From assembly GCF_024228675.1 (NCBI RefSeq), contig NZ_CP100461.1, positions 868,001 to 932,000 of the forward strand: a DNA stretch of 64,000 nt, read 5' to 3'. How positions within the stretch are numbered: the first letter of the stretch is position 1; every line of letters starts with the position of its first letter. The notes beneath the pieces were generated by a model. It ran no database searches, was not told the DNA's origin, and saw only the letters and a program-made list of their open reading frames with translations. Shown here in pieces: positions 57,516 to 64,000 of this stretch. A program made the translations under genes and the position numbers. Source of the DNA: Salinigranum marinum. GTDB taxonomy: Archaea > Halobacteriota > Halobacteria > Halobacteriales > Haloferacaceae.

Positions 57516-58007
57516 ATGAGTACTGACTGTTTATTCGGGGATGAGACGGCGTCGATCGGACAGGGCGGGGCCGAAGCAGACGACGGTGCCGCAGCCCTCG
57601 AATCGTAGCAGCGGACCGGCGACGTCGTCGAGAGCATCCGCGAGGCGAACGCGGAGGTCGACGAGGGTGCCGACGCCGTCGAGGGATCCGTCGAGACGCT
57701 CGAATCCATCCGGGTGCACGCGACGGCGACCGACACCGGCCTTGAGGAGATCGCCGACGCCGTCGAAACGCAGGCGCCCGACACCGAAGAGGTGTCGTCC
57801 GTCGTCGAGGAGACGACCGCACTGGCCGAGGAAATGAGCGCGTCGGTCCAGCAGATCTCCGCCGGAATCGACGAGCAGACGCGGGCGACCGACGAGATCG
57901 CGTCGACGGCCGTCTGCCTCTCCGACCGGAGCGAGGTCCTCCACGCGGCGGTCGACCGATTCAAAGTCGCGGACGACGAGCGGGCGGCGCTCGGATCCGG
58001 GCCGTGA
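57516..58007 (+). pseudogene. Halobacterial transducer (MCP) remnant with internal stop
   Basis: ATG 57516 opens MSTDCLFGDETASIGQGGAE, but an in-frame TAG at 57606 interrupts it. The same frame continues with ESIREANAEVDEGADAVEGS and then the conserved end of a methyl-accepting signalling domain: VSSVVEETTALAEEMSASVQ, QISAGIDEQTRATDEIASTA. It ends in a typical Htr tail. The sensor, HAMP and the receptor-tip hairpin are missing. It is a 5'-deleted, nonsense-containing fragment of a chemotaxis or phototaxis transducer. Confidence 0.8.
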
Positions 58008-58078: not shown

Positions 58079-58086
58079 TTATTTTA
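58079..58086 (+). promoter_or_regulatory. TATA box of the RGP-family gene
   Basis: TTATTTTA, 25-32 nt before ATG 58111 (leaderless). Its right half lies within the palindrome 58082-58099. Confidence 0.55.
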
Positions 58087-58099
58087 GGGCGGCCTAAAA
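58082..58099. promoter_or_regulatory. Iron-type operator TTTTAGG-GCGG-CCTAAAA before the RGP gene
   Basis: Perfect 7-bp inverted repeat with a 4-nt spacer, overlapping the TATA box. The same site (TTTAGG-N4-CCTAAA) precedes the ferric ABC operon at 59298-59313. It resembles DtxR/IdeR-family operators (TTAGG...CCTAA), the iron regulators of haloarchaea. A bound metal-loaded repressor would block TBP access. Confidence 0.7.
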
Positions 58100-58110
58100 A
58101 CTCGTGAGCC

Positions 58111-59274
58111 ATGACCCACGACGTCTGCGTCGTCGTTCCCACCATCAGGGAGTACGAATGCGTCAGAGCCTACGTCGAGAACGCCCGTTCTCACGGCTTC
58201 GACACCGATCGCCTCTTTTTCGTCCTCGTGACCGAGGACTTCTGCGACAGCCGGGAGATGGAACGGATGCTCCGCGACCTCGGCGTGGCGGGCGAGGTGT
58301 TCGACGGTACCCGTCGTGAGGAGTGGTTCGAGGCGAACGAGATTGCCGAGTTCTCGCACCTCGTTCCGGCGGCGAGCCACGCCCAGACCAGTTTCGGCCT
58401 GCTGTACCTGTGGGCCAACGGGTTCGACTACGGGGTGTTCATCGACGACGACACGCTCCCGCACGACGAGTGGGACTTCTTCGGTCGGCACATGGAGAAC
58501 CTGGCGTTCGAGGGGCCGATCGAGTCCGTCCGGTCGGACGAGCGGTGGGTGAACGTTCTCTATCAGGCGTTCGACGACCACGGCCTCTACCCGCGGGGCT
58601 ACCCGTACGCCGCGATGGACGAGACGGTCGAGACCAGTCGGAGGGCAGTCGACCACGTCGTCGCCTCGCAGGGGCTGTGGACGAACGTCCCCGACCTGGA
58701 CGCCGTCCGCATCCTGATGGACGGCGACCTGCAGGGCCAAGCACAGACCCGCACGTCGGTCGCGGACTTCACCGGCGACTTCGTCGTCGACCCCGGCCAG
58801 TACCTCACCGTCTGTTCGATGAACCTCGCGTTCCGCCGCGAGGTCGTCCCCGCGTTTTACCAGTTGCCGATGGACGACAACGAGTGGGACGTCGGGCGGT
58901 TCGACGACATCTGGTCGGGCGTCTTCCTCAAGCGCGCCGCCGACCTCCTCGGCCACGACGTCCTCACGGGCGACCCGCTCTGTGAACACAACAAGGCCCC
59001 GCGCCCGACGTTCGACGACTTGAACAACGAGGTGCCCGGGCTCGAACTCAACGAACACCTCTGGGAGTACGTCGACGAGGTCGGAGGGGACGCAGAGACG
59101 TACGCCGAGGCGTTCGCCGCGATGGCCGACCGGCTCGCGGAGGGCGACTTCGCCGAACTGAACAACGGTGCCTTCCTGAACCACGTCGGCGAGTACATGC
59201 GCGACTGGCTCGACTGTCTCGACGCTCTCGCCGGCCTCGACGCGGAGCCACAGCCCGTTCCGGCCGACGACTAG
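58111..59274 (+). CDS. RGP/GT75-family glycosyltransferase or sugar mutase
   Basis: 387 residues. N-terminal VCVVVPTIREYECVRAYVEN, a metal-binding-like FDYGVFIDDDTLPHDEWDFF (DDD), then RGYPYAAMDETVETSRRAVD, MNLAFRREVVPAFYQLPMD and WSGVFLKRAADLLGHDV. This is the reversibly glycosylated polypeptide family (GT75). In plants it works as a UDP-arabinopyranose mutase; archaeal members are uncharacterised. It sits behind an iron-type operator shared with the next operon and is monocistronic. Its link to iron could be through a secreted glycan or siderophore-like product; that is speculation. Confidence 0.8.
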   Translation: MTHDVCVVVPTIREYECVRAYVENARSHGFDTDRLFFVLVTEDFCDSREMERMLRDLGVAGEVFDGTRREEWFEANEIAEFSHLVPAASHAQTSFGLLYLWANGFDYGVFIDDDTLPHDEWDFFGRHMENLAFEGPIESVRSDERWVNVLYQAFDDHGLYPRGYPYAAMDETVETSRRAVDHVVASQGLWTNVPDLDAVRILMDGDLQGQAQTRTSVADFTGDFVVDPGQYLTVCSMNLAFRREVVPAFYQLPMDDNEWDVGRFDDIWSGVFLKRAADLLGHDVLTGDPLCEHNKAPRPTFDDLNNEVPGLELNEHLWEYVDEVGGDAETYAEAFAAMADRLAEGDFAELNNGAFLNHVGEYMRDWLDCLDALAGLDAEPQPVPADD

Positions 59275-59287
59275 ACCGAACCGGTAG

Positions 59288-59295
59288 GTATTTAG
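59288..59295 (+). promoter_or_regulatory. TATA box of the ferric ABC operon
   Basis: GTATTTAG, 26-33 nt before ATG 59321 (leaderless). It overlaps an extra TTTAGG half-site at 59291-59296. Confidence 0.5.
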
Positions 59296-59313
59296 GTTTT
59301 AGGCGGGCCTAAA
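59291..59313. promoter_or_regulatory. Iron-type operator before the ferric ABC operon
   Basis: TTTAGG-CGGG-CCTAAA at 59298-59313, with a further direct half-site TTTAGG at 59291-59296 and a T between. It lies between the TATA box and the transcription start. It matches the site at 58082-58099 in arm sequence and spacing; only the spacer differs. Confidence 0.7.
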
Positions 59314-59320
59314 TCAATGT

Positions 59321-60517
59321 ATGAGCGATGATCCGCGTGGGAGGAGTCGACGACGGTTCCTCCAGGCCGCGACGGCCGCTGGCGTCACGGTAGTGGCAGG
59401 GTGTGGCGGACAGACGGGCGGAACCGAAACCGCCGGTGACGGCGGCACCGACAGCAGCGGCGGTAGCGGGGGCGGCGACAGCGCCGACGACGACGCGGCC
59501 GTCGGACAGATCGGCTCCGGCCGCTCGCCGTTCGGGGACCGGAGCCTCGCGGGAGGGATGTCGATGCGCGAGATGCCCGACCTCTCGGGCGAACTCACGC
59601 TGTACTCCGGCCGCGGCGAGGCGCTCGTCGGCGAACTGATCGGCTTCATCGAGGAACTCTACCCCGACTTCACCGTCCGCCCGCGCTACAACGCGGCGGC
59701 GGACCTCGTGAACCAGATCCAGACCGAGGGCGGTAACTCCCCCGCCGACGCATTCTTCTCTGTCAACGCCGGGGCGCTGGGCGCGCTGAAGGACGCCGGG
59801 CGCACCGTCGAACTGCCGCAAGAGGTGCTTGACATGGTCCGCGCGGAGTTCCACGACCCCGACGGCCAGTGGGTCGGCACCTCTGGCAGGGCCCGGACGA
59901 TCCCGTACAACACTCAGTCCCTCTCTGCCGGCGAGGTGCCGACCGACATCTTCGCGTTCCCCGAGACCGAGGCCCTCCGCGACTCGATCGGCTGGGCACC
60001 GACGTACTCGTCGTTCCAGGCGTTCGTCACCGCGATGCGCGTGCTGAACGGCGACGACGCCACCCGGGAGTGGCTCGAAGGGATGCAGGCACTGGGCGTC
60101 CAGGAGTTCTCCGACGAGTTCCTCGTCTCGCAGGCCGTCGCCGACGGCGAGATCACCGCGGGCTTCGCGAACCACTACTACATCCAGCGGGTGCTCGCGG
60201 GGCGGCCGAACGCCCCCATCGCCACGGCCTTCACCGAGGGCGACGCCGGGGCCATCTTCAACGTCGCCGGCGCGCTCGTCCTCGATACGGCCGAGGACCG
60301 CACGCTGGCGTCGAACTTCGTCCGGCACCTCCTCTCGGCGGAGGCGCAGGACTACTTCGCGCGGACGACGTTCGAGTACCCACTCGTCCCCGGCGTCGAC
60401 CCCATCGGGGAGTTGCCGAGTATCGATGAATTGAACCCACCCGGGGGGTTAGACCTGACACAGTTGTCCGACCTCGAAGGCACGGTGCGGCTGATGCGCG
60501 ACGTGGGCGTCCTCTAA
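59321..60517 (+). CDS. Ferric-iron-type ABC substrate-binding lipoprotein
   Basis: 398 residues. Tat/lipobox signal SRRRFLQAATAAGVTVVAGC then a Gly/Ser/Asp linker. The type 2 binding domain has GELTLYSGRGEALVGELIGF, SPADAFFSVNAGALGALKDA, WVGTSGRARTIPYNTQSL, and FANHYYIQRVLAGRP with the paired tyrosines used by FbpA/FutA proteins to hold Fe3+. Thiamine-type proteins are similar, but the Tyr pair and the operator favour iron. It is first in a three-gene operon. Confidence 0.87.
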   Translation: MSDDPRGRSRRRFLQAATAAGVTVVAGCGGQTGGTETAGDGGTDSSGGSGGGDSADDDAAVGQIGSGRSPFGDRSLAGGMSMREMPDLSGELTLYSGRGEALVGELIGFIEELYPDFTVRPRYNAAADLVNQIQTEGGNSPADAFFSVNAGALGALKDAGRTVELPQEVLDMVRAEFHDPDGQWVGTSGRARTIPYNTQSLSAGEVPTDIFAFPETEALRDSIGWAPTYSSFQAFVTAMRVLNGDDATREWLEGMQALGVQEFSDEFLVSQAVADGEITAGFANHYYIQRVLAGRPNAPIATAFTEGDAGAIFNVAGALVLDTAEDRTLASNFVRHLLSAEAQDYFARTTFEYPLVPGVDPIGELPSIDELNPPGGLDLTQLSDLEGTVRLMRDVGVL

Positions 60518-60550: not shown

Positions 60551-62143
60551 ATGGCGACTGACCAGGGAACCACGCAGGAGACGGCCGACGACCCGCTCCC
60601 GCTCGGCCTCACGGCCGCGGCGGTGGCGGTCGCAGTAGCCGTGCTCCTGCCCCTGGTCTGGCTCTTCCGGACGGCGCTGGGCGTCGGTGTCGCCGAGGCG
60701 ATCGCGCTGCTCACGCGCCCGACCACGGTCGAGGTGTTCGTCAACAGCGCGCTGCTCGTCGCCGGGGTCACCGCCGGGTCGATCCTCTTGGGGGTGCCGC
60801 TGGCGTATCTCACCGTCCGGACGGACCTCCCATTCGCGCGGTTTTGGACTGTCGCGGTGTCGCTCCCGCTCGTCATCCCGAGCTACATCGGCGCGTTCGC
60901 GTTCGTCTCGGCGTTCGGCCCGCAGGGGGCGTTTCAACGGTTGCTCGCCCCGCTGGGCGTGGAGTCGCTGCCCGAGATCTACGGCTTCCACGGCGCGGTG
61001 CTCGTGCTCACGCTGTACACCTACCCGTACGTCTACATCACGACGCGGGCGGCGCTGAAGTCGCTCGACACGACCCTCATCGACGCCGCCCGCACGCTCA
61101 GACACTCCCGGCGGGAGGCGTTCCGCCACGTGACTCTTCCCCATATCCGTCCGGCGGTCGCGGCGGGGTCGCTTCTGGTGGCGCTGTACGCGCTGTCGGA
61201 CTTCGGCACCCCTGCGATCATGCAGTTCGACGCCTTCACGCGGGTGATCTACGTGGAGTTCAACGCCTTCGGCCGCGACACCGCGACGCTCTTGTCGCTC
61301 CAACTCGTGGCGCTGACGGTGTTCATCCTCGCGCTCGAGTCGAAAGTCAGCGGGAACGAACGCACCGCGGCCGGCGGCCGGTCGGGCGACGTGGTCGCGC
61401 TCGGCGGGTGGGTCGTCCCCGCGCTCGTGCTCTGTGCTGCGGTGGCCGGCCTCGCGCTCGTCGTCCCGCTCGGCATCCTGCTCACCTGGCTCGGCGACAC
61501 GAGCGCGGTGGGACAGGGGCTCGCCTTCCGCCCGGAGTACGCGCTGAACTCCGTCGGCGTCGCTGCCGCCGCGGCGCTCGTCGCGACCGTCGCCGGCCTC
61601 CCCGTGGCGTATCTGGCGGCGACGCGTGACTCGAAAATCGCCACTCTCTCCGAGCGAGCGACGTACGTCGGCTACGCCGTCCCCGGGGTCGTGTTGGGCC
61701 TCGCGCTCGTCTTCCTCGGCACCACGGTGGCGACGCCGATCTACCAGACGACGTTCCTCCTCGTGTTCGCCTACGTCGTCCGCTTTCTCCCCCAGGCCGT
61801 GGGTTCGCTCCGGGCGTCGTTCTTGCGCGTCGACCCCGCGCTCCCCGAGGCGGCCCGCACCCTGGGACGGACGCCGGTCGGCGCGTTCCGCGCGGTGACG
61901 CTCCCGCTCGTCGCGCCCGGCTTGCTCGGCGGGGCGGCGCTCGTCTTCCTGACGACGATGAAGGAACTCCCGGCGACCTTGCTGCTCAGGCCGTCGGGGT
62001 TCAAGACGCTCGTCGTCCACATCTGGACCGCCTACGCGGCCGGATACTTCGGTCAGGCCGCGGTCCCGGCGCTGATTCTCCTCGGCGTGTCGGGGCTGTC
62101 GATGCTGGTCATCCTCTCACAGGAGGGTTACGATGTCAGATAG
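60551..62143 (+). CDS. Ferric-type ABC permease (two fused halves)
   Basis: 530 residues with about 12 membrane helices in two repeats, as in FbpB. Each half carries an EAA-type loop: LIDAARTLRHSRREAFRHVT then LPHIRPA, and LPEAARTLGRTPVGAFRAVT then LPLVAPG. They couple to the ATPase. The gene starts 33 nt after the binding-protein stop and overlaps the ATPase gene by 11 bp. Confidence 0.9.
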   Translation: MATDQGTTQETADDPLPLGLTAAAVAVAVAVLLPLVWLFRTALGVGVAEAIALLTRPTTVEVFVNSALLVAGVTAGSILLGVPLAYLTVRTDLPFARFWTVAVSLPLVIPSYIGAFAFVSAFGPQGAFQRLLAPLGVESLPEIYGFHGAVLVLTLYTYPYVYITTRAALKSLDTTLIDAARTLRHSRREAFRHVTLPHIRPAVAAGSLLVALYALSDFGTPAIMQFDAFTRVIYVEFNAFGRDTATLLSLQLVALTVFILALESKVSGNERTAAGGRSGDVVALGGWVVPALVLCAAVAGLALVVPLGILLTWLGDTSAVGQGLAFRPEYALNSVGVAAAAALVATVAGLPVAYLAATRDSKIATLSERATYVGYAVPGVVLGLALVFLGTTVATPIYQTTFLLVFAYVVRFLPQAVGSLRASFLRVDPALPEAARTLGRTPVGAFRAVTLPLVAPGLLGGAALVFLTTMKELPATLLLRPSGFKTLVVHIWTAYAAGYFGQAAVPALILLGVSGLSMLVILSQEGYDVR

Positions 62144-63332
62144 TGTACTCTCACACGGCGACGGACGAACCGACACCGAACCGACGACGCGGGCCGAGCC
62201 GCCGGTGTTAGAGCTCGACGACGTCGCGAAACGCTACGGCGACGAGCCGGTCATCGCGGACCTGTCGCTGTCGGTCAACGAGGGAGAGATCCTCACGTTG
62301 CTCGGTCCGTCGGGCTGTGGCAAGACCACCACGCTTCGACTCATCGCCGGGCTCGACCGTCCCGACGCGGGGACGATCCGGCTCAACGGCGACCCCGTCT
62401 CCGGCGACGGCGCGTTCGTCGCGCCCGAACGGCGCGGCGTCGGCGTCGTCTTCCAGGAGTTCGCGCTCTTCCCGCACCTGACCGCCGCCGAGAACGTCGC
62501 GTTCGGGCTGAAGGAGGCTTCGACGGCCGAGACGGACGCCCGCGTGCGGGAACTGCTCGACCTCGTCGGCCTCGAAGCGCAGGCCGACTCCTACCCCGAC
62601 GAGCTCTCCGGCGGGCAGCAACAGCGGGTCGCGCTCGCTCGATCGCTCGCGCCCGAACCGGAGATCCTCCTCCTCGACGAGCCATTCTCGAACCTCGACG
62701 TCGACCTCCGCGTGGCGATGCGCGAGGAGGTCCGTGACATCATCAAGGAGGCCGGCGTGACGGCCGTGTCGGTCACCCACGACCAGGAGGAGGCGATGAG
62801 CATCTCGGACAGAGTAGCCGTCGTCAACGACGGCCGAATCGAACAGATCGGCGAGCCCGAGCAGGTGTTTCAGCACCCCGAATCCCGGTTCGTCGCCGGG
62901 TTCTTGGGGTACGCCTCGTTCATCCCGGGCCACGTCGACGGCGACGTCGTCAGGACCGACCTGGGATCGGTACCGCGCGACCAGATCCACGGGCTCGCCC
63001 CCGAGTACGACGACACCGCGATCGATATCCTCGTTCGCCCCGACGACGTCCGCGCCATGCGGCCGTCGCGGGCCGACGCGAACCACGGGAACGACGTCGG
63101 CAACGCCCACGTGGTGACGAAGCGCTACCTCGGGCCGACGATCCTCTACGAGGTCGCCCTCGACGACGGGACCCGAATCCAGTGTATGCACAACCACGAC
63201 GAGCAGGTGCCGCTCGACGAACGCGTCGAACTGACGCTCCAAGCGGATCACGAACTCGCGTGGTTCCCGGGCGAACAGCGCCCCGCACTCGACTCGCGCG
63301 AGGACCAACTCCGCCACGGCGCCGACGACTGA
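62133..63332 (+). CDS. Ferric-type ABC ATPase (FbpC/PotA class)
   Basis: 399 residues. Walker A LLGPSGCGKTTTLRLIAG, Q-loop VGVVFQEFALFPHLTAAENV, signature LSGGQQQRVALARSLAPEPE, Walker B ILLLDEPFSNLD, H-loop VSVTHDQEEAMSI. The C-terminal 150 residues are a TOBE/OB regulatory domain (IDILVRPDDVRAMRPSRADA, LGPTILYEVALDDGTRIQ), in which some FbpC proteins sense iron. It completes the iron uptake operon. Confidence 0.92.
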   Translation: MSDSVLSHGDGRTDTEPTTRAEPPVLELDDVAKRYGDEPVIADLSLSVNEGEILTLLGPSGCGKTTTLRLIAGLDRPDAGTIRLNGDPVSGDGAFVAPERRGVGVVFQEFALFPHLTAAENVAFGLKEASTAETDARVRELLDLVGLEAQADSYPDELSGGQQQRVALARSLAPEPEILLLDEPFSNLDVDLRVAMREEVRDIIKEAGVTAVSVTHDQEEAMSISDRVAVVNDGRIEQIGEPEQVFQHPESRFVAGFLGYASFIPGHVDGDVVRTDLGSVPRDQIHGLAPEYDDTAIDILVRPDDVRAMRPSRADANHGNDVGNAHVVTKRYLGPTILYEVALDDGTRIQCMHNHDEQVPLDERVELTLQADHELAWFPGEQRPALDSREDQLRHGADD

Positions 63333-63344
63333 GACCGACTCGAC

Positions 63345-64000
63345 GTGGTCCCGACTCCGACGCCGCCGCCCGACCTCCTCGACCGCCTCCGCACGCGACT
63401 CCGCGGCGTGCATCCGCTCGACGCGCTCGGCCTCGCGCTCGCGTTCGCCGCCGGCGTCGTCGTCTTTCTCGTCGCGACCGACCTCTTCGCGTACCACTCC
63501 GTCAACGACGACGAGGGCGTCTACCTCCTCCAGGCCGCGATGCTTCTCGACGGCCAGGTCGCGCTCCACCCGCCGGCGGCCATCGCCGACCTCGTCCATC
63601 CGTGGTTCTTCATCGAGGAGTCGACGCCGACGGGCCCGGTCATGTACCCCAAGTACGCGCCGGTCCCCGCCGCCGTCTTCGCCGTCGGGACCCTCGCCGG
63701 CGACGCACACCTCTCGCTCGCGGGCGTCGCCAGTCTCTCCGCGCTCTTCGTGTTCCTCCTCGGCCGGGAGGTCGCCGACCGCCCCACCGGCGTCGTCGCC
63801 GTCTGCCTCCTCGTGACGGCCCCGCTGTTTCTCCTCTCCTCGTCGGTGTTCCTCCCGTACGCGCAGACGACGATGTGGAACCTCGCGTTCGCGGTCGCGT
63901 ACCTCCGCGCCGTCGGCCGTGACTCGCTCGGCTACGCGCTCGCGGCGGGCGTCGCCGTCGGCGTCGCATTCTTCGGCCGGCCGTACACCGCCGTGCTGTT
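63345..64000 (+). CDS. GT39-like membrane glycosyltransferase, N-terminal part
   Basis: Open from GTG 63345 to the window end (218 codons). Residue 25 onward shows membrane helices, and the first outer loop has VNDDEGVYLLQAAMLLDGQV, where a conserved Asp/Glu pair in GT39/ArnT-type transferases binds the sugar-lipid donor; then VMYPKYAPVPAAVFAVG. GT39-like enzymes move sugars from dolichyl-phosphate carriers to proteins or lipids. It starts 12 bp after the iron operon and may be in it. The C-terminus is outside the window. Confidence 0.75.
   Translation, partial: MVPTPTPPPDLLDRLRTRLRGVHPLDALGLALAFAAGVVVFLVATDLFAYHSVNDDEGVYLLQAAMLLDGQVALHPPAAIADLVHPWFFIEESTPTGPVMYPKYAPVPAAVFAVGTLAGDAHLSLAGVASLSALFVFLLGREVADRPTGVVAVCLLVTAPLFLLSSSVFLPYAQTTMWNLAFAVAYLRAVGRDSLGYALAAGVAVGVAFFGRPYTAVL

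Follow-up and report, generated by a model that had tools for sequence, protein, structure and literature searches.

The locus described here raises the question of why one palindrome should precede two neighbouring genes of Salinigranum marinum, one for a glycosyltransferase of the GT75 (RGP) family and the other for the first component of a ferric-type ABC system. Within the 64-kb window (the whole stretch of DNA that was analysed), TTTTAGGGCGGCCTAAAA is an exact palindrome at positions 58082-58099, and TTTAGGCGGGCCTAAA is an exact palindrome at positions 59298-59313. The putative operator within the first, TTTAGG-GCGG-CCTAAA (58083..58098, no strand assigned), lies in the GT75 promoter and ends 12 nt before the ATG at 58111. 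The second, TTTAGG-CGGG-CCTAAA (59298..59313, likewise without strand), ends 7 nt before the ATG of the SBP gene at 59321. The initial annotation had reported two sites with the same arms and spacer length, and this description is exact at these coordinates; the window holds no further match to TTTAGG-N4-CCTAAA with up to two mismatches. When the motif scan was applied to dinucleotide shuffles of the window, again with up to two mismatches allowed, 0.13 matches were obtained versus the two real ones, and in a permuted-arm control no other member of a set of 60 palindromes of the same composition reached two matches at up to one mismatch. Both sites had been placed at the TATA box or the transcription start of a leaderless gene. 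The GT75 site indeed occupies the expected TATA box position, and the SBP site is more accurately described as lying closer to its gene start.

A scan of the whole genome, which had been proposed as a check, gave a divided answer. The exact 16-mer is rare, with six copies in 4.9 Mb: the two described above, a cluster of three that precedes a DUF5059/plastocyanin gene, and a single copy next to a small ORF. At a tolerance of one or two mismatches, this genome has more matches to the reversed control pattern than to the motif itself, and therefore loose genome-wide counts are uninformative. The case for an operator is carried instead by position and conservation.

Some of the other sites in this genome and in that of Haloferax denitrificans can be described briefly. 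The three clustered operators (C1:3009873-3009958, locus L020) are located between the minus-strand gene encoding the DUF5059 and plastocyanin domains and a short plus-strand ORF, and H. denitrificans (L255) carries, behind one exact site, a DUF5059-like gene whose family is judged by its resemblance to the Pfam-tested S. marinum gene. A one-mismatch operator is found upstream of a small Tat-type gene at C1:1240552 (L022), and an exact one precedes a small Tat-type gene in H. denitrificans (L249), where a GMC oxidoreductase-like frame comes next. Genes related to the L022/L249 type that lie near GT75 in other genomes match Gluconate_2-dh3 and GMC. One-mismatch, operator-like sites also stand before genes for a class-V (cysteine-desulfurase-like) aminotransferase and a ZIP transporter (C1:3311297 and C1:1723243). 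Two DtxR-family genes are present in the S. marinum genome, and their products are candidate binders.

Conservation was assessed with a sample of 60 orthologous GT75 loci representing 48 genera and 11 families. TTAGGN4CCTAA is present without mismatch upstream of GT75 in 57 of these loci, an SBP gene lies downstream of GT75 in 58, and at least 40 of the 58 SBP-bearing loci carry another exact site close to where the SBP gene begins. Among 80 named genomes, the exact 16-mer is found at GT75 in 68 and a one-mismatch version in 10 more (78 of 80 at zero or one mismatch); the two exceptions, one of which is Halocatena marina, have two and three mismatches. Salinigranum salinum (88% identity) is a near relative. 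Across 627 kb of GT75 loci there are 145 exact sites, compared with approximately zero expected under a first-order Markov model, and most of them sit at the starts of GT75, SBP or GT2 genes. An alignment of 58 sites exhibits fixed arms and a free 4-nt spacer, of which the informative part is the spacer freedom, given that the sites were selected by arm match. The suggestion that a GT75 member belongs to an iron-type regulon is thus supported for the class as a whole.

A few loci imperfectly reflect this arrangement. Four Halocatena-type loci (L087, L089, L196 and L205) have GT75 without the operator, and two of them (L087 and L089, both from genus g69) also lack an adjoining SBP gene; therefore, the sugar genes are separable from the link to iron. 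In one further locus (L128), sites are located only downstream of GT75.

The assignment of the motif to iron regulation, which the initial annotation had based on its resemblance to DtxR/IdeR operators, is reinforced by two lines of evidence. The proposed one-dimer IdeR/DtxR consensus is the 14-bp TTAGGNNNNCCTAA (PMC8464063), and both window sites match this inverted repeat exactly. In its canonical form the IdeR operator spans 19 bp and accommodates two dimers (PMC8464063), whereas the haloarchaeal operator corresponds to the 14-bp one-dimer form. Moreover, H. denitrificans carries 25 exact sites compared with no matches to the reversed control. These sites precede at least six siderophore-type SBP genes (Peripla_BP_2) and a class-III aminotransferase gene, lie around a DtxR-family gene and the nearby dpsA, and also occur at a GT75 locus. 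In H. marinum, there are just six exact sites versus four control matches.

A haloarchaeal iron regulon under ferR/Idr/TroR has reportedly been described by Leyn and Rodionov in 2015 and by Martinez Pastor in 2024 (both cited in PMC11349517), and some of the operator sites discussed here may already figure in published regulon papers. The similarity to IdeR/DtxR systems and to this regulon lies in TTAGG-N4-CCTAA at siderophore-binding-protein genes, at a DtxR-family gene and at dpsA. Unlike in those systems, the operator described here also precedes GT75 and GT2 genes. Published evidence indicates that fhu genes bear the ferR regulon signal (PMC11349517). The cluster genes are not named in the searched text of an iron-starvation proteome paper, and a literature search on the neighbours of HVO_1705 returned no direct iron response in the text that was searchable. 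In the iron-starvation paper, HVO_0655 (GalE family) and HVO_1859 (UPF0104) are more than 10-fold up, and these two proteins resemble, at the level of family, those often encoded upstream of GT75.

The GT75 gene (58111..59274, plus strand) codes for a protein of 387 aa that is predicted to be a Mn-dependent NDP-pyranose mutase of the RGP/MtdL type on the basis of PF03214, its match to MtdL and its fold. Its PF03214 score is 66.3 bits (gathering cut-off 23.8), and it matches the Marinactinospora NDP-pyranose mutase MtdL (PMC9937993) at E 2e-30. A structural model, for which 30 orthologues were used and which has a mean pLDDT of 78, aligns with MtdL over 355 residues (Z 37.4, rmsd 2.7) and with rice OsUAM2 (PDB 8cid) at Z 27.7, and judged by this modelled fold the haloarchaeal protein is a full-length MtdL-type member. 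The family placement made in the initial annotation is therefore retained, and its emphasis on plant enzymes is weakened: plant RGP/UAM proteins share family and fold, but they are more distant than the bacterial mutase and differ in substrate and context.

The characterised GT75 enzymes use Mn2+ (PMC9937993), and the corresponding active-site residues are largely preserved. D112-D114 (DDD), H293 and R162 are invariant in 30 GT75 sequences, and Asp195, Ser236, Arg263 and Asp266 are also conserved, such that MtdL Asp109-111, Arg159, Asp195, Ser228, Arg257, Asp260 and His287, which include the Mn-binding DDD and His and the reactive Arg, Ser and Arg, all map to conserved positions. Identity to MtdL is 26%. 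The MtdL sugar contacts Asp87 and Gln229, which define its substrate subgroup, give way to His90 and Met237, each of them invariant, and with these substitutions the substrate, and perhaps the reaction, should differ from those of MtdL. Context differs as well, since MtdL belongs to an antibiotic cluster and haloarchaeal GT75 to an iron-type regulon. PF03214 is found in 48 of 345 genomes of the phylum, with all matches listed falling within the class Halobacteria; Haloferax volcanii, included among the controls, is positive. One haloarchaeal genome encodes a second PF03214 protein (G010:C2:1525556-1526527) that scores 452 bits, far above the iron-linked type, and the class therefore contains a canonical RGP as well.

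The second operator precedes the gene for a ferric-binding SBP lipoprotein of the FbpA type with a Tat signal (59321..60517, plus strand; SBP_bac_6/8 and TAT_signal_seq). It is followed on the same strand by genes for an ABC permease (60551..62143; PF00528, BPD_transp_1, in two stretches) and an ABC ATPase with TOBE_2 (62133..63332; PF00005 and PF08402). The best PDB match of the SBP is the ferric-binding protein 7w3w (E 5.8e-65), and similarity to FbpA proteins (7w3w, 3wae) extends throughout the mature domain with the tandem Tyr kept. By these alignments the SBP is of the ferric type, and on this evidence the idea that the ABC system imports sugar was dropped. FbpA systems differ in that many haloarchaeal loci are without the downstream permease and ATPase genes. 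Coupling of the SBP to GT75 is also less tight than that among the sugar genes: at E 1e-60 the SBP is listed for 356 genomes, and weaker matches occur in genomes without GT75. On the other side of GT75, a short ORF at 57714-58007 has a sub-cut-off match to MCP signalling and is perhaps the remnant of a transducer gene.

At the end of the window begins a gene for a GT-C-like membrane glycosyltransferase (63345..64000, plus strand), which extends past the window end (full gene C1:931345-933471). Its product has a marginal PMT_2 score (28.5 bits, gathering cut-off 26.1; 36.3 bits in the protein of one relative) and a DUF7846 score of 185 bits, and it has no sequence match in the PDB up to E 1. 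Clustering of neighbouring genes revealed that this PMT_2/DUF7846 gene recurs in 52 of 61 loci. In 24 GT75 loci there is a GT2 gene, with an exact operator at 19, and proteins seen in subsets of loci include an LPG_synthase_TM protein, an NAD epimerase and a GMC oxidoreductase. Where the GT2 gene is located far from GT75, the operator is nevertheless found upstream of it in 20 of 20 genomes (10 exact, nine with one mismatch and one with two); that of S. marinum has one mismatch.

Comparison of gene content shows that the three genes are inherited together: of 391 haloarchaeal genomes, 306 have all three of GT75, GT2 and PMT_2/DUF7846 and the other 85 have none of them, the identity of the three 306-genome lists being judged by eye. 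By inspection, 18 genera include both genomes that have the set and genomes that lack it, which indicates many concerted gains or losses. The GT2 partner, a predicted dolichyl-phosphate hexose transferase, scores 407 bits against NF041391, the haloarchaeal NCBIfam model for such enzymes (curated cut-off 375). What distinguishes it from other haloarchaeal DolP hexose transferases (NF041391; compare HVO_1613 and AepG, PMC9943897) is that inheritance and the operator tie it to GT75 and PMT_2/DUF7846. AepG was considered as the GT2 partner and rejected, as the paper describes it as a different, membrane-anchored enzyme.

Genome comparison thus shows an association of the operator with GT75, the ferric SBP and the distant GT2 gene, and strongly suggests that these genes are regulated through it. 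We consider it probable that both palindromes are DtxR-family iron operators that govern ferric uptake and a lipid-linked sugar pathway. When Fe(II) is ample, a DtxR-family regulator, presumably acting as a repressor, would bind near the TATA box of GT75 and the transcription start of the SBP gene and hold these genes down; at low iron, it would come off and release them. One arm of the response would be ferric uptake by the FbpA-type SBP, the permease and the ATPase. In the other, as the families involved would predict, GT75 would convert the ring form of an NDP-hexose from pyranose to furanose, GT2 would load the hexose onto dolichyl phosphate, and the sugar would then be passed to a surface acceptor outside the cell by the PMT_2/DUF7846 membrane protein. 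The product could be a surface glycan or an iron-binding compound, as had been proposed, and the arrangement suggests that these salt-loving archaea alter their surface sugar coat under iron shortage. More doubtful, and advanced here tentatively, is a version in which most haloarchaea would have a glycosylation pathway dedicated to iron starvation: NDP-hexofuranose from GT75 would be loaded by GT2 onto dolichyl phosphate and placed by PMT_2/DUF7846 on a surface acceptor, for instance the ferric-binding lipoprotein or a ferric-chelating glycan, the decoration being part of iron capture.

Several other explanations were weighed against these proposals. The operators could be real and the sugar genes could represent a general route for surface glycosylation or exopolysaccharide that has no role in iron acquisition, with iron acting only as a signal of growth or stress that prompts remodelling of the envelope. 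This is a serious possibility, although not one we would bet on, given that Halocatena-type genomes keep the set without the operator or adjoining SBP gene, that GT2 is unlinked in many genomes, and that related DolP glycosyltransferases from haloarchaea function in exopolysaccharide production (PMC9943897). It accounts less readily for the SBP gene following GT75 directly in 58 of 60 loci, where it often separates GT75 from the PMT_2 gene.

The cognate metal might instead be manganese or another divalent metal, with a DtxR-family regulator that resembles MntR/SirR. Siderophore-binding-protein genes dominate the H. denitrificans regulon and the linked SBP is of the ferric type, and we therefore judge this improbable despite the Mn2+ requirement of characterised GT75 enzymes (PMC9937993) and the one-mismatch site upstream of the S. 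marinum ZIP transporter gene. Finally, AT-rich arms at the expected TATA position of GT75, together with the abundance of reversed control patterns at one or two mismatches in the S. marinum genome, might be taken to mean that the palindromes are core promoter elements or arose by chance, with no regulator involved. That view is very hard to reconcile with fixed arms around a free spacer in 58 sites, with 145 exact sites where almost none are expected, and with an operator at every one of the 20 unlinked GT2 genes; a chance origin was rejected on the grounds of conservation and the excess of exact sites.

GT75 mutases are known in connection with plant cell walls and with antibiotic clusters, and here a member of the family is found class-wide in haloarchaea with an iron-type operator. 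Its strict inheritance with two other glycosylation genes provides a likely pathway for an orphan family of dolichyl-phosphate hexose transferases. Gene-deletion tests are feasible, since the group is tractable and includes the PF03214-positive Haloferax volcanii. If the favoured reading of the operators is correct, surface glycosylation would thereby be linked to iron limitation in archaea.
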